From NCBI GenBank assembly GCA_947489085.1, contig CANLCJ010000012.1, positions 1 to 64,000 of the forward strand: DNA of 64,000 bases. Direction: 5' to 3'. Made by a program: the position numbers and the translations under genes. Each line of letters opens with the position of its first letter. The stretch's first letter is position 1. This document shows, piece after piece, positions 26,616-35,809 of this stretch. The stretch is from an uncultured Flavobacteriaceae bacterium (lineage in GTDB: Bacteria > Bacteroidota > Bacteroidia > Flavobacteriales > Flavobacteriaceae). The notes beneath the pieces were generated by a model, which saw nothing but the letters and a program-made list of their open reading frames with translations, did not search any database and had not been told where the DNA came from.

Positions 26616-28706
26616 TTATAAATCTTGGGCTTGAATAGCGGTTATTATTACTGTACTATAAATATCATCTACAGTACAGCCTCTGCTTAAGTCGTTAACG
26701 GGTTTGTTTAAGCCTTGCAGCATTGGGCCAATGGCAAGCGCACCTGTTTCGCGTTGTACCGCCTTATAAGTGTTGTTTCCCGTATTTAAATCTGGAAATA
26801 TAAGTACACTAGCCTGCCCTGCAACATCAGAGTTTGGGAGTTTGCTTTTTCCCACGCGTATATCTACAGCAGCATCGTATTGTATAGGCCCTTCAATTTT
26901 TAAATCGGGTGCCTTAGTTTTAGCTATTTCTGTAGCTTGCCGTACCTTATCTACATCTTCACCTTTACCCGAAGCACCAGAAGAATAAGAAAGTAAAGCC
27001 ACTTTGGGGTGTATGCCAAAGTTCTCTGCAGTTCTAGCAGAAGACACCGCAATTTCAGCCAACTGCTCGGCATTCGGATTTGGGTTTATGGCACAATCTC
27101 CAAATACAGAAACACGATCTTCTAAACACATAAAAAATACAGAAGACACAATATTAACACCCGGTTTGGTTTTTATAAACTGTAAGGCTGGGCGCAACGT
27201 GTGTGCTGTGGTATGTGCAGCACCAGACACCATGCCATCGGCGTGCCCTTTATAAATCATCATAGTGGCGAAATAAGAAACATCTGCCATGGCATCTCTA
27301 GCCATATCTAAATTAATGTTTTTATGCTTGCGCAACTCATAAAAAGTTTGCACATAATCATCAAAATTTGGAGACTGCTGTGGCGATACAATATTTAGGT
27401 GTTCCAACTGTAAAGAAATATCTTCTTCCGTAAGTATGGTCTTTATTATAGAAAGCTCCCCAATTAATGTTAAGTCTACAACCTGTTGTTCTAAAAGTCT
27501 GGCAGCAGCTTTTAATACTCGAGCATCGTGGCCTTCTGGTAAAACAATGTGTTTTTTATGTTTTAAAGCACGTTGTAATAAGTTATACTGAAACATACGT
27601 GGTGTTATGGTTTTAGATTTAAAACCAATTAAAGCCTCTGCTAATCTTTTTGTATCGACATACTTCTCGAAAGTGCTGATGGAAACTTCTATTTTCTCGG
27701 TATTTTCGGCATAAATTCTGGATTTTATCTTCCCAATGCTATTCGTTACATTAAAAGTACCTTGTTGTACGCTAATTATTGGAACCACACTAGATAAGCC
27801 CTCTATAAGCTTTAAAATAGGCGCTTCTGGTATTAGTCCGCCAGTAAGTACAATACCAGAAATTTTAGGGTAGTTTTTAGAACTATTTGCTTGTAAAGCC
27901 CCCAATATAATATCAGCACGATCTCCAGGGGTAATTACCAGGGCATTTGCTTTAAGGTGGGTCAAGTAATTGCGCAGTTGCATGGCACCAACGCTATAGT
28001 GTTGTGCTTGGTTATTTATGGCATGTTTTCCAAAAAGAACTTTCCCTCCTAGCGTTTTAATAACTTCTTTTATCGTAGGACTGGCTAAACTTTTTATTTT
28101 AGGAATTACGGCAATTTCAGTAGCATCTGTAATACGTTTGGTAAGTTTTTCTTTTAAAACAGAAACATCATTAGGTGCTATTTTATTGGCAATTATGGAA
28201 ATAACATTTACATCTTCTTTAAAAGTGTTATAGGCCAATTGTACGTTTTCCAAAATGTCATCCACCGCATTATCGCCACCTTGCGCCACCATAATAACGG
28301 GTAAGCCTAGGTTTTTAGAAATTAGCAGATTAATGTCTAGTTCTAAGCTCGAATTTTCATGAGAAAAATCGGTGCCCTCCACTAAAATAAAATCGAATTG
28401 AGTTTCTAGAGACTTATAAGCTTCTATAACTTTATTAATAACATCTCCAGCTTTTCCTCTATTATACAAATCCAATACCTCATGTCTGGTAAAGGCATAG
28501 GTGTCTTTATAAGAAATGGGTATATCGAAAAAAGAGGTAACAGTATTAATGTGGTTGTCTTTGGCACCTGTTGTATCATGCTCTATAATTGGTCTAAAAT
28601 ACCCAACCTTAGGTGTTTTTCCTAAAAGCATTCGCATTAAGCCCAATACAATAATAGATTTACCACTGTTAGGCTCTAAAGTAGCCACATATATTCCTTT
28701 GCTCAT
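26616..28706 (-). CDS. pta: Phosphate acetyltransferase (long form)
   Basis: A protein of 696 residues of the long Pta type. It has an N-terminal dethiobiotin synthetase-like P-loop domain (VATLEPNSGKSIIVLGLMRML), a DRTGG domain (about 215-320) and the catalytic phosphotransacetylase domain (about 375-690, with HIVLPEGHDARVLKAA, YFATMMIYKGHADGMVSGAAHTTA, LLSYSSGASGKGEDVDKV and IGPMLQGLNKPVNDLSRG). It interconverts acetyl-CoA and acetyl phosphate and is partnered with AckA. No clear full promoter was found upstream of 28706. Confidence 0.96.
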   Translation of the reverse strand: MSKGIYVATLEPNSGKSIIVLGLMRMLLGKTPKVGYFRPIIEHDTTGAKDNHINTVTSFFDIPISYKDTYAFTRHEVLDLYNRGKAGDVINKVIEAYKSLETQFDFILVEGTDFSHENSSLELDINLLISKNLGLPVIMVAQGGDNAVDDILENVQLAYNTFKEDVNVISIIANKIAPNDVSVLKEKLTKRITDATEIAVIPKIKSLASPTIKEVIKTLGGKVLFGKHAINNQAQHYSVGAMQLRNYLTHLKANALVITPGDRADIILGALQANSSKNYPKISGIVLTGGLIPEAPILKLIEGLSSVVPIISVQQGTFNVTNSIGKIKSRIYAENTEKIEVSISTFEKYVDTKRLAEALIGFKSKTITPRMFQYNLLQRALKHKKHIVLPEGHDARVLKAAARLLEQQVVDLTLIGELSIIKTILTEEDISLQLEHLNIVSPQQSPNFDDYVQTFYELRKHKNINLDMARDAMADVSYFATMMIYKGHADGMVSGAAHTTAHTLRPALQFIKTKPGVNIVSSVFFMCLEDRVSVFGDCAINPNPNAEQLAEIAVSSARTAENFGIHPKVALLSYSSGASGKGEDVDKVRQATEIAKTKAPDLKIEGPIQYDAAVDIRVGKSKLPNSDVAGQASVLIFPDLNTGNNTYKAVQRETGALAIGPMLQGLNKPVNDLSRGCTVDDIYSTVIITAIQAQDL

Positions 28707-28814
28707 AGTTGCGAATTTACCTTGTATAAATTTACAAAATGTATGGCGAAACTACCCTTTAAAACAGGTGGTAAAGACGATAAATATTAACGCCTAAAAT
28801 AAAAATTGAAACAG

Positions 28815-29705
28815 TTAAGCGGTTAGTTCTCTAAACAAACTTTCTAAACTTGTGTTTTTCTGGTTGAGTTGTAAAATCTTTAATTCATTGTCATGCGCAA
28901 AATCAAAAACATAAGCACGCATGTCTTCAGTAGTATTAAAGGTAATTTCGTAAACAAAACCCTCTGTGTTTTTTACACCTTCAACTTTTGGTAATTTTAA
29001 AAGAAAAGCTTCCTCTACGCGATAATCAAATTCTGCAATAACAACCTGTTTGGTGTCGTCTCGCATGGCGCTTAATTTTCGGTCTGCAACAATTTCTCCT
29101 TTGTTAATAATAATAACGCGATCGCACATGGCCTCTACTTCCTGCATGATATGCGTTGATAAAAACACAGTTTTAGTTTTACCTATACGTTTTATAAGGC
29201 TTCTAATTTCAATAAGCTGGTTGGGGTCCAAACCTGTAGTAGGTTCGTCTAAAATTAAAACCTCAGGATCGTGTAGTAAAGCAGTAGCCAAACCTACACG
29301 TTGGCGGTAGCCTTTAGAGAGTTGTCCTATTTTTTTATGCACCTCTGGAGTTAATCCTGTTAAAGTAATAACCTCCTCAATACTAGCCTTACTTACCTTA
29401 TAAATACTGGCATTAAATGCCAAATACTCTTTTACATACATGTCTAAATACAAAGGATTGTGTTCTGGCAAATACCCAACACTTCGTTGTATGCCTTTGG
29501 GGTTGCTTAACGCAATATTGTTTACCAAAACGTTTCCATTAGAAGGCGCAATGTAAGTGGTTAAAATCTTCATCATAGTAGATTTACCCGCACCATTAGG
29601 GCCAAGAAAACCAACAATCTCTGGTTTGTTTACAGCAAAGGATATTGTGCTAAGTGCTTTTTGCACACCGTAAACTTTAGAAACACCATTAACTTTAATA
29701 GACAT
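28815..29705 (-). CDS. gldA: Gliding-motility ABC transporter ATP-binding protein
   Basis: A protein of 296 residues: an ABC ATPase with Walker A GPNGAGKST (35-43), signature LSKGYRQRVGLA, Walker B VLILDEPTTGLDP and switch histidine in LSTHIMQEVEA, plus a C-terminal extension with a RDDTKQVVIAEFDYRVEE start. Sequence and length match GldA, the ATPase of the GldAFG transporter of flavobacterial gliding. gldF and gldG are not nearby. The frame opens at a TTG (29726), but the ATG at 29705 gives the family start MSI. Confidence 0.85.
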   Translation of the reverse strand: MSIKVNGVSKVYGVQKALSTISFAVNKPEIVGFLGPNGAGKSTMMKILTTYIAPSNGNVLVNNIALSNPKGIQRSVGYLPEHNPLYLDMYVKEYLAFNASIYKVSKASIEEVITLTGLTPEVHKKIGQLSKGYRQRVGLATALLHDPEVLILDEPTTGLDPNQLIEIRSLIKRIGKTKTVFLSTHIMQEVEAMCDRVIIINKGEIVADRKLSAMRDDTKQVVIAEFDYRVEEAFLLKLPKVEGVKNTEGFVYEITFNTTEDMRAYVFDFAHDNELKILQLNQKNTSLESLFRELTA

Positions 29706-29723
29706 ATATAGGTATTGTTTTGT

Positions 29724-29731
29724 CAAAAATA
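29724..29731 (-). promoter_or_regulatory. Putative -7 element of gldA
   Basis: Minus-strand TATTTTTG fits TAnnTTTG; TCTG at the right distance (29750-29753) is a one-mismatch -33 element. Transcription would start about 14 nt before the gldA ATG. Confidence 0.5.
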
Positions 29732-29811
29732 ATGATTCTTTAATGGAAACAGAATTTTGCTATAGATTCTTTAAAACTTTTTAAGAAATTGAAAAAAAAG
29801 GTTTTAATCTG

Positions 29812-29842
29812 TTTTTATTTCATAAAATAATATTTAATTTAG
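29812..29842 (+). promoter_or_regulatory. Putative promoter of the pheA leader transcript
   Basis: TTTT (29812-29815), 19 nt, then TAATTTAG (29835-29842) matches the Bacteroidota promoter with one mismatch per element. It would start RNA shortly before the leader peptide ATG at 29853, as an attenuator requires. Confidence 0.45.
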
Positions 29843-29852
29843 CGGCGTAATT

Positions 29853-29933
29853 ATGAGAACAACAGCTTTTTATACATATTTCAACTTCTTCTATTTCTTT
29901 TTTAGCAAAAGAAGCGAGACGTTATATGTATAA
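29853..29933 (+). CDS. Phe/Tyr-rich leader peptide of the pheA operon
   Basis: A 26-codon ORF, ATG to TAA. Phe occupies positions 6, 10, 12, 13, 15, 16 and 17 and Tyr positions 7, 9, 14 and 25: 11 of 26 residues are the end products of the operon downstream. It ends 51 bp before pheA (ATG 29985) and overlaps RNA segments 1 and 2 of the attenuator described in the next entry. It resembles E. coli PheL in composition and role but not in sequence. It is expected to act as a sensor through ribosome stalling at the Phe/Tyr codons, not as a functional protein. Confidence 0.85.
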   Translation: MRTTAFYTYFNFFYFFFSKRSETLYV

Positions 29934-29984
29934 TTTTAACAATAAAATTTAATATAAGTCTCGATGAAAATCGAGACTTTTTTT
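29870..29984 (+). promoter_or_regulatory. Transcription attenuator of the Phe/Tyr operon
   Basis: Three mutually exclusive stems can be drawn. 1:2 is a perfect 10-bp pairing TTATACATAT (29870-29879) with ATATGTATAA (29924-29933). 2:3, the antiterminator, pairs CGAGAC and TTATAT (29915-29920 and 29922-29927, G29921 bulged) with ATATAAGTCTCG (29952-29963), 12 bp. 3:4, the terminator, is a 10-bp stem 29956-29965 with 29970-29979, GAAA loop and seven Ts. The main Phe/Tyr codon run (29880-29903) starts directly after segment 1. A ribosome stalled there would cover segment 1 and free segment 2 for 2:3 pairing, allowing read-through; a ribosome reaching the stop at 29931 would cover segment 2 and leave 3:4 to terminate. 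Confidence 0.85.
29956..29984 (+). terminator. Attenuator terminator directly before pheA
   Basis: Stem AAGTCTCGAT / ATCGAGACTT with a GAAA tetraloop, then T7 (29978-29984). The T run abuts the pheA ATG at 29985, so the hairpin could also hide the translation start of any read-through RNA. Confidence 0.9.
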
Positions 29985-30809
29985 ATGATACATACAGTAG
30001 CCATACAAGGAGCAAGAGGGTCTTTTCACCACATAGTATCTCGGGAGTTTTTTAATACCCCTGTAGATGTTATAGAATGCATGACGTTCGATAGGGTTGT
30101 AGACGCATTGATTAATAACGAATGCGAAGCCGCTATTATGGCGTTAGAAAATTCTATAGCAGGATCTATTATACCCAATTATGCTTTAATAGACGATTAT
30201 GCACTTCGTATAGTTGGAGAACATTATTTGGATATTCAGCACAACCTAATGGCTTTGCCAGGGCAGCGTATCGAAGATATAGAAGAAGTGTACTCGCACC
30301 CTATGGCACTGTTACAATGTAAAGCGTTTTTTAAAGACTACCCGCATATTAAATTGGTAGAAGATAAAGATACTGCTGAGGTTGCAGAACGCATCCAAAA
30401 GAAAAAATTAGCCAAAACAGGTGCTATAGCAAGTGTAATGGCAGCAGAGATTTTCGAATTAGAAGTATTGGCACACAGCATACAAACGATAAAGCATAAC
30501 GAAACGCGGTTTGTAATTGTAGAGCGCCAATCTAATGTAGAACAAAATGAGAGTAATAAAGCTTCGATTAAGTTTGAAGCAGACCATAAACGCGGGAGTT
30601 TGGCCACGTTATTAAATGTAATGAGCGATTGTAAACTCAATTTAACCAAGATACAATCCTTACCCATTATAAAAACACCATGGAAGTATGCCTTTTTTGT
30701 TGATGTAACTTTCGATGCTTATGAGGATTTTGCTAAAGCAAAGTCTATAATCGAAATTATGGGGCAAAGCTTTAAAGTGTTAGGAGAATATAAAAATGCA
30801 AAGTTATGA
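29985..30809 (+). CDS. pheA: Prephenate dehydratase
   Basis: A protein of 274 residues. It has the PDT domain (MIHTVAIQGARGSFHH, IMALENSIAGSIIPNYALI, EHYLDIQHNLMALPG, YSHPMALLQC, and HNETRFVIVERQ with the catalytic TRF) and a C-terminal ACT domain (about 195-270, RGSLATLLNVMSDCKLNLTKIQSLPI). It makes phenylpyruvate and is probably feedback-inhibited by Phe through the ACT domain. There is no fused chorismate mutase; that is at 33030. An in-frame ATG at 29964 lies inside the terminator, so 29985 is the chosen start. It overlaps the next gene by 4 bp (ATGA). Confidence 0.95.
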   Translation: MIHTVAIQGARGSFHHIVSREFFNTPVDVIECMTFDRVVDALINNECEAAIMALENSIAGSIIPNYALIDDYALRIVGEHYLDIQHNLMALPGQRIEDIEEVYSHPMALLQCKAFFKDYPHIKLVEDKDTAEVAERIQKKKLAKTGAIASVMAAEIFELEVLAHSIQTIKHNETRFVIVERQSNVEQNESNKASIKFEADHKRGSLATLLNVMSDCKLNLTKIQSLPIIKTPWKYAFFVDVTFDAYEDFAKAKSIIEIMGQSFKVLGEYKNAKL

Positions 30810-31951
30810 TTGAAGTTGCAAAACGTTTACATGTTGTAGAAGAGTACTATTTCTCCAAAAAACTTAGAGAGGTAGGCGCGCTTATAGCTAGTGGAAAACC
30901 AATAATAAATTTAGGTATTGGCAGTCCAGATTTGCAACCTCCAACAGAGGTAATTAAAGCCATTTCTGGGAGTTTAGAAGATCTTACAGCGCACAAGTAC
31001 CAAAGTTACCAAGGCTTGCCAGAGCTAAGAGAAGCCATAGCAGCTTTTTACAACAGGCATTTTTCTGTAACTCTAGACGCAGCAAACGAAATATTGCCAT
31101 TAATGGGCAGTAAAGAAGGGATTATGCACATTTCTATGGCATATTTAAACGAAGGCGATGCTGTTTTAATACCCAATCCAGGATACCCAACATACCAATC
31201 TGTAACCAAGCTTGTTGGAGCAAAAGGCATTTTATACAATTTGGACGCCAGCAACAATTGGATGCCAGATATAGCGGAGCTCGAGGCTCAAGACCTAAGC
31301 AAAGTAAAGCTTATGTGGGTAAATTACCCACACATGCCAACAGGAGCAACGCCAACAGCAACTATCTTTAAAGAATTAGTAGCATTTGCAAAACGCCACG
31401 ACATATTAATTGTAAACGATAATCCTTACAGTTTTGTGCTAAACGATAATCCTACCAGTATTTTGAGTGTAGAAGGCGCTAAAGACGTATGCTTGGAGCT
31501 AAACTCATTAAGCAAAACATTTAATATGGCAGGCTGGCGTGTAGGGATGGTGTCTGGCAGCAAAACACATATAGCTAATATTTTAAAAGTAAAAAGTAAT
31601 ATGGACTCAGGTATGTTTTATGGCATACAAAAGGGCGCTATTGCTGCCTTAAATAGTTCTAATTCTTGGTACGAGAATTTAAATGAAATATATAAAAAGC
31701 GTCGTGATTTAATATGGCAAATGGCAGACGCCTTAAATAGTACGTACGATAAAAATGCAACGGGTATGTTTGTATGGGCCAAGTTACCTGCGGGCTTAAA
31801 ATCGGAAGCTTTTATAGACGATATTTTAAAAACAAAAGACATATTTATAACACCAGGAACTATTTTCGGAACACAGGGCGAAGGTTACATCCGTTTTTCG
31901 CTATGTGCGCCAACCGAAATTTTAGAGACTGCTGTTGCTAGAATTAAGTAA
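30806..31951 (+). CDS. Class I/II PLP aminotransferase (aromatic/aspartate type)
   Basis: A protein of 381 residues with the fold-type I signatures LGIGSPDLQPP, YQSYQGLPELREAIAAFY, NPGYPTYQSV, MWVNYPHMPTGA, the PLP lysine in SLSKTFNMAGWRVG, and the C-terminal RFSLCAPTEIL. Between pheA and tyrA it most likely transaminates phenylpyruvate and 4-hydroxyphenylpyruvate to Phe and Tyr, although aspartate or diaminopimelate aminotransferase activity cannot be excluded. It starts inside the pheA stop. Confidence 0.9.
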   Translation: MIEVAKRLHVVEEYYFSKKLREVGALIASGKPIINLGIGSPDLQPPTEVIKAISGSLEDLTAHKYQSYQGLPELREAIAAFYNRHFSVTLDAANEILPLMGSKEGIMHISMAYLNEGDAVLIPNPGYPTYQSVTKLVGAKGILYNLDASNNWMPDIAELEAQDLSKVKLMWVNYPHMPTGATPTATIFKELVAFAKRHDILIVNDNPYSFVLNDNPTSILSVEGAKDVCLELNSLSKTFNMAGWRVGMVSGSKTHIANILKVKSNMDSGMFYGIQKGAIAALNSSNSWYENLNEIYKKRRDLIWQMADALNSTYDKNATGMFVWAKLPAGLKSEAFIDDILKTKDIFITPGTIFGTQGEGYIRFSLCAPTEILETAVARIK

Positions 31952-32083
31952 AAACGGATTTTCCGTTTCAACACAAAAACGAAGTAGATTATACTATTAG
32001 AAAACAAGAAACACTAAAAGAGTAGTACACCCGAGTAAAAGTATTTACTTTTAGATTTAGGTGGCTGTTTAGGCAAAGGCTTT

Positions 32084-32935
32084 ATGAAAAATATATATGC
32101 AATAGGAATAGGTTTAATTGGAGGTAGCTTAGCTATCGATATTAAAAACAACAATCCAGATATAATCATCCATGGCATTAGCAGAAAAGACGCAACATTA
32201 AACAAGGCGTTAGAGCTAGGTTTAATTGATAAAAAAGCAACTTTAGAAGATTTAAAACATGCCGATTTGGTAATTGTATCTATTCCTGTAGATGCTACAG
32301 TAAAGCTATTGCCTACAATTTTAGATAAAATTCCAGACACGGCACTTGTAGTCGATGCGGGCTCTACTAAAGCAGACATCTGTAGAGCTGTAGAAAACCA
32401 TCCTAAACGCAGAAATTTTTTGGCAATGCACCCTATAGCGGGTACAGAGCATTCTGGGCCTACAGCAGCAATATCTGGCTTGTTTAAAGGAAAAACAAAT
32501 ATTGTTTGCGAAGTAGAAAAAACAACATTTAAGCTTCAGGAAAAAGCCTTAAAACTCTTTACCGATATAGGTATGAGAATACGGTACATGAATCCTGAAG
32601 AACACGATAAGCACATAGCTTATGTATCGCACTTGTCCCATATTAGTGCATTTATGTTAGGCAAAACGGTAATCGATAAAGAAAAGAACGAACGCGATAT
32701 TTTCGATATGGCAGGAAGTGGTTTTGCTTCTACAGTAAGACTTGCTAAAAGTTCGCCAGAAATGTGGACGCCCATTTTTAAGCAAAATAAAGCAAATGTG
32801 GTAGAAACATTAGAAGAGTACATAGCTAATCTTACAACGTTTAAAGAGCTTATGAAAGCAGATGATTACGAGGCTATTTTTAAAGAAATGGAGAGTACGA
32901 ATTACATTAAAGAGATATTAAAAGGAATACATTAA
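32084..32935 (+). CDS. tyrA: Prephenate dehydrogenase
   Basis: A protein of 283 residues. It has the NAD-binding start YAIGIGLIGGSLAIDIK, VDAGSTKADIC, MHPIAGTEHSGPTAA with the conserved histidine, and HIAYVSHLSHISAFML. It makes 4-hydroxyphenylpyruvate for tyrosine. The 132-bp gap upstream holds two small hairpins (AAACGGA-TTT-TCCGTTT just after the aminotransferase stop, and TAAAAGTA-TT-TACTTTTA), neither with a T run, so read-through is likely. It lacks a fused chorismate mutase. Confidence 0.94.
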   Translation: MKNIYAIGIGLIGGSLAIDIKNNNPDIIIHGISRKDATLNKALELGLIDKKATLEDLKHADLVIVSIPVDATVKLLPTILDKIPDTALVVDAGSTKADICRAVENHPKRRNFLAMHPIAGTEHSGPTAAISGLFKGKTNIVCEVEKTTFKLQEKALKLFTDIGMRIRYMNPEEHDKHIAYVSHLSHISAFMLGKTVIDKEKNERDIFDMAGSGFASTVRLAKSSPEMWTPIFKQNKANVVETLEEYIANLTTFKELMKADDYEAIFKEMESTNYIKEILKGIH

Positions 32936-33029
32936 ACGAATTACCAATTATTAAATACCAAATTCCATTACAGGCCCATTAAAAGACGATTGGGATTTGG
33001 AATTTGATTTTTGAATTTTATTACATATT

Positions 33030-34112
33030 ATGGAAAACAACAAAGAAATGAGAGCTTGGTTAGATGATTTAAATTTAGATCATCCATTAGTAATTGCTGG
33101 GCCATGTAGCGCAGAAACAGAAGAGCAGGTATTAAAAATAGCGCACGAGCTAAAAGATACAGATGTAAGCTACTTTAGAGCAGGTATTTGGAAACCAAGA
33201 ACTCGTCCAGGAAACTTCGAAGGTGTAGGAGCTTTAGGTTTAAAGTGGTTGCAAAAAGTAAAAGCAGAAACAGGTATGAAAGTATGTACCGAAGTTGCTA
33301 ATGCTGCACACGTAAAGTTGGCTTTAGAGCATGATATCGATATGTTATGGATTGGTGCACGTTCTACGGTGTCTCCTTTTATAATGCAAGAAATAGCAGA
33401 CGCTTTAAACGGTACAGACAAGCCTGTATTGGTTAAAAACCCTGTAAATCCAGATTTATCATTATGGTTAGGTGGTATAGAGCGTATTTACAGTTCTGGT
33501 GTTAAAAATATTGGAGCCATTCACAGAGGGTTTTCTACATACCAAAAAACAAAATACCGTAACATTCCAGAATGGCAAATGGCTATCGAGTTTCAAAATA
33601 AATACCCAGATATTCCATTAATAAACGATCCTTCTCATATTACAGGAAATAGAGAAATGATTTTCGATGTGTCTCAAACAGCCCTAGATTTAAATTTCGA
33701 TGGTTTAATGATTGAAACACACTACGATCCTGAAAACGCATGGAGTGATGCTGCACAACAAGTAACACCTTCAACTTTAATTCAAATTATGAAAGATTTG
33801 AAAATTAGAAAAGAATCTAATGAAGAAGAAGAGTACAATAGCACACTAAACAATTTAAGAGCGCAGATCGATGTTGTAGACAACCAAATATTAGGTTTAA
33901 TGGGACAGCGTATGAAAACTTCTGAAGAGATAGGAGATTTAAAGAAGAAGAAAAACGTAGCAGTTTTACAATCTAAACGTTGGAACGAGATTTTAGGTAA
34001 AATGGTATTAGAAGGAGAGCAACATGGTTTAAGTGAAGAGTTTATCTTAAAAATGTTTAAAGCAGTTCACCAAGAGTCTATAAATCACCAAGAAAAAGTG
34101 ATAAACGGTTAA
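33030..34112 (+). CDS. Bifunctional DAHP synthase / chorismate mutase
   Basis: A protein of 360 residues. The N-terminal DAHP synthase (about 1-260) has VIAGPCSAETEEQV, YFRAGIWKPRTRPGNFEGVG, VCTEVANAAHV, WIGARSTVSPF, VLVKNPVNPDL, NDPSHITGNREM and GLMIETHYDPENAWSDAAQQ. The C-terminal AroQ chorismate mutase (about 270-355) starts NSTLNNLRAQIDVVDNQILGLMGQRM. It thus supplies both the entry step of the shikimate pathway and the branch step to prephenate, completing the Phe/Tyr operon. A strong terminator follows. Confidence 0.95.
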   Translation: MENNKEMRAWLDDLNLDHPLVIAGPCSAETEEQVLKIAHELKDTDVSYFRAGIWKPRTRPGNFEGVGALGLKWLQKVKAETGMKVCTEVANAAHVKLALEHDIDMLWIGARSTVSPFIMQEIADALNGTDKPVLVKNPVNPDLSLWLGGIERIYSSGVKNIGAIHRGFSTYQKTKYRNIPEWQMAIEFQNKYPDIPLINDPSHITGNREMIFDVSQTALDLNFDGLMIETHYDPENAWSDAAQQVTPSTLIQIMKDLKIRKESNEEEEYNSTLNNLRAQIDVVDNQILGLMGQRMKTSEEIGDLKKKKNVAVLQSKRWNEILGKMVLEGEQHGLSEEFILKMFKAVHQESINHQEKVING

Positions 34113-34160
34113 AATAACAGCCATTTAAATAAGTCTCAGGCTTATTAAAATTGAATTATC

Positions 34161-34199
34161 AAAAAAGGCGCTATTTAAATGCTAAATAGCGCCTTTTTT
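34161..34199. terminator. Strong bidirectional terminator after the Phe/Tyr operon
   Basis: A perfect 17-bp stem (34161-34177 with 34183-34199), GGCGCTATTTA core, 5-nt loop, with A6 and T6 at the outer ends. It can serve the operon on the plus strand and the convergent peptidase gene. Confidence 0.93.
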
Positions 34200-34289
34200 A
34201 ATAATTGTGCTTAGATTATAGATTGAAGTATCGTTATTAAGGTTTCAAAAACTAATGTTTTATTAATTTCAGCGTAGTTAGCACTACGG

Positions 34290-35060
34290 TTAAATAGCAG
34301 CCTTGTACTTTTCTATAGATGCTTCAATTTTCTCAATTCTATTTTCAGGATCAGGATGCGTGCTTTTAAACTCAGGTACTCGATTAGGCCCAGCAGCAGC
34401 TTTTAAAATTTCCATAACTCCAATCATCTCCCTAGGATCGTAACCAGATCTCATCATAAACCTCACACCAAGATCATCACTTTCAAGTTCGTCGTCTCTA
34501 CCATTGGTTAACAACTTGTTTTGACCAATACCTCCAATTAAACCACCCATATCAGCACCAACAGAACCTGCAGTAGCCAAACCTTGCCAATATTCACTTT
34601 CTGCGATACGTTCGGCACTATGGCGCCCTAATACATGGCCAATTTCATGCCCTAGTACACCAGCGAGTTGATCTTCGTTCTCTAACTTAGAAAACAAAGC
34701 GTAAGTAATAAAAATTTGTCCACCAGGTAAAGCAAAGGCATTAATGGTATTGGGATCGTTTAATAAATGAAACTCGTACTTATAAGGGGTTTCTTTAGCA
34801 ATACTGTTGTTTACAAGTTTGTTACCCACATTATCAACCATAGCTTGTAAACGATGATCTGGATGTAAACCTCCATGCTGCTGCGCCATTTGTGGGGCAT
34901 TTTGAAGGCCTATGGCAATTTCGTTTTCGGCAGACATAGAAATTGTTTGCATGCGTTTGGTATATGGGTTTTCTTCTCTTTGACTACAGCGTTTCAAATA
35001 GAAAAACACAGCAATAGCTACGCCTATTAAAAGCCTGAATTTAAAATTTTTGCCTCTCAT
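34290..35060 (-). CDS. M48-family metalloprotease
   Basis: A protein of 256 residues. It has an N-terminal membrane segment (FRLLIGVAIAVFFYL), then a helical linker and a peptidase domain with zinc motif HEIGH (context GVLGHEIGHVLGRHSAERIAE) and the third ligand region DDELESDDLGVRFM. Family members (BepA/LoiP/Oma1-like) degrade misfolded envelope proteins. The ATG at 35060 is chosen because the 45-base extension upstream opens with TTG; two TAnnTTTG-like elements (35085-35092, 35103-35110, minus strand) lie just upstream. Confidence 0.88.
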   Translation of the reverse strand: MRGKNFKFRLLIGVAIAVFFYLKRCSQREENPYTKRMQTISMSAENEIAIGLQNAPQMAQQHGGLHPDHRLQAMVDNVGNKLVNNSIAKETPYKYEFHLLNDPNTINAFALPGGQIFITYALFSKLENEDQLAGVLGHEIGHVLGRHSAERIAESEYWQGLATAGSVGADMGGLIGGIGQNKLLTNGRDDELESDDLGVRFMMRSGYDPREMIGVMEILKAAAGPNRVPEFKSTHPDPENRIEKIEASIEKYKAAI

Positions 35061-35736: not shown

Positions 35737-35809
35737 GCGGGAGTAGCTCAGTTGGTAGAGCGTCAGCCTTCCAAGCTGAATGTCGCCAGTTCGAACCTGG
35801 TCTCCCGCT
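35737..35809 (+). tRNA. tRNA-Gly (anticodon TCC)
   Basis: A 73-nt cloverleaf. Acceptor stem GCGGGAG pairs with CTCCCGC (35802-35808), D-loop AGCTCAGTTGGTAGAGC, anticodon stem TCAGC/GCTGA with TCC at 35770-35772, and T-arm with GTTCGAA. The discriminator base is T35809 and CCA is not encoded. Confidence 0.97.

Follow-up and report, generated by a model that had tools for sequence, protein, structure and literature searches.

Introduction

In enterobacteria, pheA is preceded by a Phe-rich leader peptide and a terminator, an arrangement shared with the locus described here; the E. coli pheA leader is Phe-only, unlike the present one. The E. coli ilvGMEDA leader resembles it in being multivalent, with codons for several end products of one pathway, but concerns branched-chain rather than aromatic amino acids and uses a Shine-Dalgarno start. 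Bacteroidetes may also be covered by the work of Lopatovskaya and colleagues, who compared attenuation systems in 2010. Leader-peptide RNA is likewise known from the same phylum as RF01692 (Bacteroid-trp, Bacteroidete tryptophan peptide leader RNA), the Bacteroidetes Trp leader that forms a table row of Weinberg 2010 (PMC2864571). In Bacteroides thetaiotaomicron, short ORFs in long 5′ UTRs are described in a passage of PMC7366714 as reminiscent of attenuation leaders. A passage of the 2021 study of F. psychrophilum (PMC9723704) names a structured element in the 5′ region of pheA, which other genera of the Flavobacteriaceae are reported to share and which has no Rfam hit, and offers general clues to leader-peptide attenuation before amino-acid operons.

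Here we analyse the region before pheA in a 64,000-nucleotide stretch of DNA (the window) from an uncultured Flavobacteriaceae bacterium. Judging from this sequence and its relatives, the element before the pheA operon is, with a probability of about 0.88, a classical ribosome-mediated transcription attenuator that would sense charged aromatic tRNAs. Such attenuation was the core of the original prediction, and it is well supported by codons and stems that are conserved and covary in relatives; promoter, start site, stalling, termination and its release are parts of the attenuator model that we infer.

Gene context of the leader

The stretch 29835-29985 lies between the divergent gldA and pheA, in the following context:

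28815-29726, minus strand: gldA (TIGR03522 above cut-off)
29985..30809, plus strand: pheA, prephenate dehydratase (PF00800, PDT domain)
30806..31951, plus strand: class I/II aminotransferase (PF00155)
32084..32935, plus strand: tyrA, prephenate dehydrogenase (NF006307 above cut-off; PF02153 and PF20463)
33030..34112, plus strand: DAHP synthase-chorismate mutase fusion (PF00793 and PF01817)

The domains, namely prephenate dehydratase, aminotransferase, prephenate dehydrogenase and DAHP synthase/chorismate mutase, agree with the predicted operon for Phe and Tyr synthesis. The ACT match of the pheA product is weak and under its cut-off, and among the 25 NCBIfam matches listed for the aminotransferase none reaches cut-off; from its context this enzyme is probably aromatic. 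Of 80 named loci, 78 have the whole gene order, from divergent gldA through pheA, aminotransferase and tyrA to DAHP synthase, and two have part of it.

The ORF finder puts the pheA start at ATG 29964, inside the terminator loop and 7 codons before the likely start. We prefer ATG 29985, directly 3′ of the T run, as the likely start, because nearly all relatives align ATG, TTG or GTG there and the stretch before it varies. At loci L014-L020 the first codon of the pheA frame, at the aligned position, is TTG, and the terminator T run lies some 40-65 nt upstream. Elsewhere in the window, in the gap that separates the pheA operon from a convergent gene, a long hairpin (34157-34203) was called as a minus-strand terminator and, judging by its A/T-rich flanks, may be used in both directions; a tRNA gene was found at 35737-35809 in the Rfam scan.

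The leader ORF and its conservation

Two features define the leader:

29853..29933, plus strand: leader peptide ORF, MRTTAFYTYFNFFYFFFSKRSETLYV followed by a stop codon (translation; aromatic leader in 176/177 upstreams)
29880..29903, plus strand: dense aromatic run FNFFYFFF, presumed stall zone (last five alignment columns 94-100% aromatic)

Translation agrees with the 26 codons, 7 of them Phe and 4 Tyr, that had been read from the sequence; the window thus has the short ORF rich in end-product codons that an attenuator calls for. A first sample of 120 pheA loci was obtained by PheA searches from the window's genus and family, plus named contigs that are mostly Flavobacteriaceae, with a few titled only Flavobacteriales or Bacteroidia. 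After removal of 23 loci with identical upstreams, an aromatic-rich leader ORF was found in 97/97 distinct upstreams, and likewise in 79 of 80 more distant family members drawn from among the matches listed. A terminator follows the leader in each of these, giving an aromatic leader plus terminator before pheA in 176/177 upstreams in or near the family; from leader to terminator, 173 of the 176 differ in sequence. The leader was taken as the ORF of highest aromatic density, and the counts are conditional on that choice; best density was 7-10 of 12 residues in 176/176 leaders, and only 4 of the 177 regions reached at least 7 when read as reverse complement. The one exception, L130 (genome G024), shows a GC-rich hairpin upstream of pheA and neither a leader nor an aromatic ORF.

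Alternative stems in the window

The leader RNA can be divided into the following segments, all on the plus strand:

29870..29879: segment 1, partner of 29924-29933 (base check, covariation, partner swaps)
29915..29927: segment 2, the 5′ half of antiterminator 2:3, with G29921 bulged (covariation, duplex tests)
29924..29933: 3′ half of stem 1:2, holding the leader stop codon (base check, covariation, partner swaps)
29952..29963: segment 3, the 3′ half of the antiterminator (covariation, duplex tests)
29956..29984: intrinsic terminator 3:4, with GAAA loop and T run (terminator scan, covariation)

A script check of the bases bore out all three mutually exclusive stems at the predicted positions, for 3:4 in its outer 9 pairs. 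Stem 1:2 joins 29870-29879 to 29924-29933 (10 bp, perfect); stem 2:3 joins 29915-29920 to 29958-29963 and 29922-29927 to 29952-29957 (12 bp); stem 3:4 joins 29956-29965 to 29970-29979 and is followed by the T run 29978-29984. Two details had to be amended. The stop codon, predicted to lie in segment 2, does fall in the 1:2 partner (29931-29933) but outside the part that forms 2:3; and segment 1, said to end where the dense run begins, has two Tyr codons inside it. One further Tyr codon of the window lies in its partner.

Folding of 29845-30000, which had been proposed as a check, gave −34.1 kcal/mol (z −4.79), with 0/200 shuffles as good. Chance or low complexity was rejected as an explanation from this fold against shuffles and from the aromatic density against shuffles and against the reverse complement. 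Four terminator-like sites were found on the plus strand of 28700-34500, two inside gldA, one inside tyrA and, as the sole intergenic one, 29956..29984. An intrinsic terminator stands between the leader ORF and the first gene. A terminator of the upstream gene was rejected, gldA being on the opposite strand: since gldA is divergent, there is no plus-strand gene upstream for it to end.

In the window the pheA ATG follows directly on the T run, and according to a proposal in a passage of PMC4833913, ribosomes reinitiate after leader genes in many phyla, Bacteroidetes among them. Control could on these grounds be translational, the terminator hairpin hiding the pheA start codon or ribosomes reinitiating from leader to pheA, with no termination of transcription. 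This is very improbable, as many relatives start pheA tens of bases past the T run with hairpin and T run unchanged, and the conserved T run itself points to termination.

Covariation and partner swaps

The alignment of pheA upstreams in Flavobacteriaceae that had been suggested as a check shows conserved leader codons and covarying stems; a lack of either, which would have spoken against attenuation, was not found. In alignment A1, built with MAFFT from the window plus 67 of the 79 distant leaders (68 rows in all), 99.2% of the cells of terminator 3:4 are paired and 5 of its 9 pairs have changed on both sides. Cells changed on both sides numbered 41 for 3:4 against 5.2 in shuffles, 55 for 2:3 against 31.1, and 71 for 1:2 against 40.0, each with 0/500 shuffles as high, although none of the covariation, core-type and swap tests fully corrects for relatedness. 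For 2:3 and 1:2, paired cells and covariation score also exceeded each of the 500 shuffles, with only 67.5% and 73.2% of cells paired, respectively. No excess was seen in the number of pairs changed on both sides (reached by 56/500 shuffles for 2:3 and 91/500 for 1:2) or in further pair types (162/500 and 209/500). In A1, segment 2 of the CGGGAC type is shifted by one base relative to that of the CGAGAC type. This shift lowers the 2:3 count, and alignment-free tests were therefore added.

Two of the 176 leaders, whose terminator core was unreadable, were dropped, leaving 174. Exact matches in segment 2 follow the type of the terminator core: core GTCTCG goes with exact CGAGAC in 70/141 leaders (135/141 pair when G-U is allowed), GTCCCG with exact CGGGAC in 15/23, GTCCTG with CAGGAC in 2/5 and GTTCCG with CGGAAC in 1/3. 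With G-U allowed, pairing of the GTCCCG-type leaders is just as good with each of three other core types (19/23 each), and 12/174 leaders have no full Watson-Crick plus G-U complement of the core in segment 2. Partners were then swapped within core types among the 79 distant leaders and the window. The true partner was favoured for 1:2 (0/10000 permutations as good) and, overall, for 2:3 (5/10000); within the GTCCCG type there was no excess for 2:3 (z −0.1, 4461/10000 permutations as good). In combination, mutually exclusive antiterminator and protector stems with covariation were found, with some measures and one subgroup showing no excess.

Aromatic specificity

In the last five columns of the dense run, TTT alternates with TTC and TAT with TAC, the aromatic residue being kept. 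Phe and Tyr occur in 165/165 distinct leader peptides of relatives, and Trp in 104/165; the window's own leader has no Trp. In one column outside the three named stems the residues are W 77, F 36 and Y 29, and in one inside segment 1 they are Y 127, W 26 and F 11; the two columns are 92% and 99% aromatic, respectively. This exchange of F, Y and W with aromaticity kept suggests that selection acts for 'aromatic', as in multivalent leaders such as ilvGMEDA. The dual Phe plus Tyr sensor of the original prediction fits the window's leader and falls short for relatives, which carry Trp too, and across these the attenuator looks pan-aromatic.

Could it sense Phe alone, the Tyr and Trp codons being tolerated because they fit the stems or the F-rich context? 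We regard this as unlikely, given Tyr in every distinct leader, Trp in most of them, the exchanges in the two columns and an operon that also makes Tyr and includes DAHP synthase, even though Phe is the commonest leader residue (21.9%), pheA is the first gene and three of the window's Tyr codons lie in segment 1 or its partner.

Predicted promoter and 5′ end

One feature precedes the leader:

29835..29842, plus strand: TAATTTAG, predicted −7 box for sigma-A (TAnnTTTG with one mismatch)

A sigma-70 promoter scan gave no plus-strand match between 29026 and 30112. Flavobacterial sigma-A motifs are given in a passage of PMC9723704 as variations around TAnnTTTG at −12 to −5. The exact consensus TA..TTTG occurs within 90 nt in only 8/176 leaders. 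In 168/176 leaders the form TA..TT.G is found no more than 45 nt before the leader ATG, against 7.8% of approximate dinucleotide shuffles, a comparison that is not blind because the pattern was loosened from TA..TTTG after inspection of the sequences. Its commonest form is TACTTTAGC (118 of the 170 upstreams with a box within 60 nt). With the box at −12 to −5, transcription of the window's leader is predicted to start near 29847, giving a 5′ UTR of about 6 nt; the same arithmetic predicts about 4-18 nt in 163 of the 170 upstreams with a box. Such a 5′ UTR is short, though not exceptional, since a passage of PMC9723704 puts the median in F. psychrophilum at 24 nt and counts 5.5% of mRNAs as leaderless. 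The leader AUG would lie some 6 nt inside the predicted transcript, which a ribosome could bind nearly at the moment its first bases are exposed.

Presumed stall geometry and proposed mechanism

Between the last aromatic codon of the run and segment 2 there is a gap of 10-11 nt in 156 of the 162 leaders with a site (14 of the 176 had none). A ribosome footprint reaches about 14 nt, and a ribosome halted on the last Phe codon, held in the A site, would thus have its front edge roughly at segment 2; a stall in this zone would block segment 1 yet free segment 2.

The position of the stop codon varies, preceding segment 2 in ten leaders, and several leaders end the ORF right after the aromatic run with the segment 2 RNA kept (e.g. 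L052, L059, L072, L093, L104). It is therefore the cis pairing that is conserved, not the C terminus of the peptide, which makes it most improbable, more so than translational control, that a constitutive partial terminator merely releases a leader RNA or peptide to act in trans as proposed for peTrpL; a trans role of the Sinorhizobium Trp leader peptide is reported in a passage of PMC7298713. Attenuation in cis remains the preferred reading.

In folding calculations, nascent RNA reaching to 29963-29975 with a stalled ribosome, tried at two positions, adopts the antiterminator fold (−13.4 to −14.5 kcal/mol), and the terminator forms with the ribosome at the stop codon or absent. At full length with a stalled ribosome the terminator is preferred (−17.1 kcal/mol), lying about 2.6 kcal/mol below the antiterminator, whose base-pair probability is 0.07-0.14. 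As equilibrium favours the terminator at full length, release by antitermination must be kinetic.

Under the proposed mechanism, transcription would begin a few bases before the leader ATG. With Phe-tRNA or Tyr-tRNA plentiful, the ribosome would reach the stop codon and cover segment 2, and terminator 3:4 would form before pheA; in most sampled relatives Trp-tRNA would be sensed too. A ribosome stalled in the aromatic run would cover segment 1 and leave segment 2 free, so that 2:3 would pair once segment 3 is out and segment 4 is still to be transcribed, and RNA polymerase would read on. If the leader is not translated, 1:2 would form and the terminator would win.

Spread beyond the family

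A wider sample comprised 54 regions, of which 47 remained after removal of 7 from other classes of the phylum that lacked a pheA start; several were placed on weak matches, and L280 (E 0.47) and L281 (E 4.1) are unreliable. Within the class, a leader was accepted at a shuffle p ≤ 0.02 and a density of at least 5. Other families had an aromatic leader in 22/37 pheA upstreams (13/21 families); 15/37 fell short, among which three, two of family f17 and one of f32, missed narrowly (p 0.023-0.043). A density of at least 6 was reached in 24/37 upstreams against 2/37 in the reverse complement. In some leaderless genomes (f16) pheA may closely follow another coding sequence. Outside the class, aromatic leaders stand before pheA at L271 (G507) and L273 (G465), whose PheA is 43-44% identical to that of the window.

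Duplexes between segments 2 and 3 were compared for 26 leaders (19 from other families of the class, 5 from the window's family and 2 from other classes), a set from which 14/47 regions were removed manually because they had no aromatic leader, and 7/47 because their larger-loop hairpins were missed by the terminator finder. The total for the leaders' own duplexes is −390.9 kcal/mol, and for swapped partners it is −273.6 (sd 14.6), with 0/20000 permutations as good; the own partner was better than the average of the others in 23/26 leaders and worse in three (L254, L261, L273). Covariance model R1 was unspecific, 13 of its 26 class matches (the window's own included) lying upstream of a pheA match and 13 not. 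The chances are about even that attenuation of a pan-aromatic kind (Phe, Tyr, Trp) arose early in Bacteroidia and was often rewired by compensatory change, on a nearly leaderless mRNA without a Shine-Dalgarno start and with the position from stall to antiterminator held at 10-11 nt.

Comparison with known systems

The Rfam 15 scan of the window returned only a tRNA match, with no riboswitch, T-box or other family at cut-off for the pheA leader, and none of 12 pheA loci tested had a family at gathering cut-off. RF01859 (Phe_leader), which we take to be the enterobacterial pheA leader, scored 18.7 bits (E 0.81) against the window, below its gathering cut-off of 55. RF01692, which differs from the window's pheA leader in its Trp run and its operon, had no match in the window and none up to E 10 in 29780-30050; at the trpE locus of the same genome (L295, C45) it scored 68.4 bits (gathering cut-off 49). 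The leader there, MTLQLNISWWWHYRN, has three Trp codons and a terminator-like hairpin. Before hisG of the same genome (L294, C35), a short ORF with His codons, MIITQNHHHIHTCKQAR, is followed by a terminator-like hairpin and has no Rfam match above cut-off; from its sequence it is a probable His attenuator. The presence of these two leaders elsewhere in the genome speaks for attenuation before pheA as well.

The element of PMC9723704 shares gene and family with the window's and is likened to it by these, not by sequence; the section on the element gives no leader sequence, stems, sensed amino acids or spread beyond the family. The present element defines an RNA family without a match in Rfam 15 and offers a concrete leader sequence, three covarying stems and a spacing open to test. 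The control of aromatic amino-acid synthesis to which these belong is widespread, and the phylum concerned initiates translation without Shine-Dalgarno sequences. As attenuation needs a ribosome close behind RNA polymerase, it would serve as a natural assay of transcription-translation coupling in Bacteroidota. The literature searched for prior art yielded no pan-aromatic anatomy, class-wide spread or predicted 5′ UTR of about 6 nt. A Phe/Tyr attenuator in Bacteroidota had been expected to be notable; as a kind it is not new, because RF01692 covers the Bacteroidetes Trp leader and the part of PMC9723704 concerned had named a pheA element, and what the present analysis adds to prior knowledge is the apparent pan-aromatic sensing, the breadth and the geometry.
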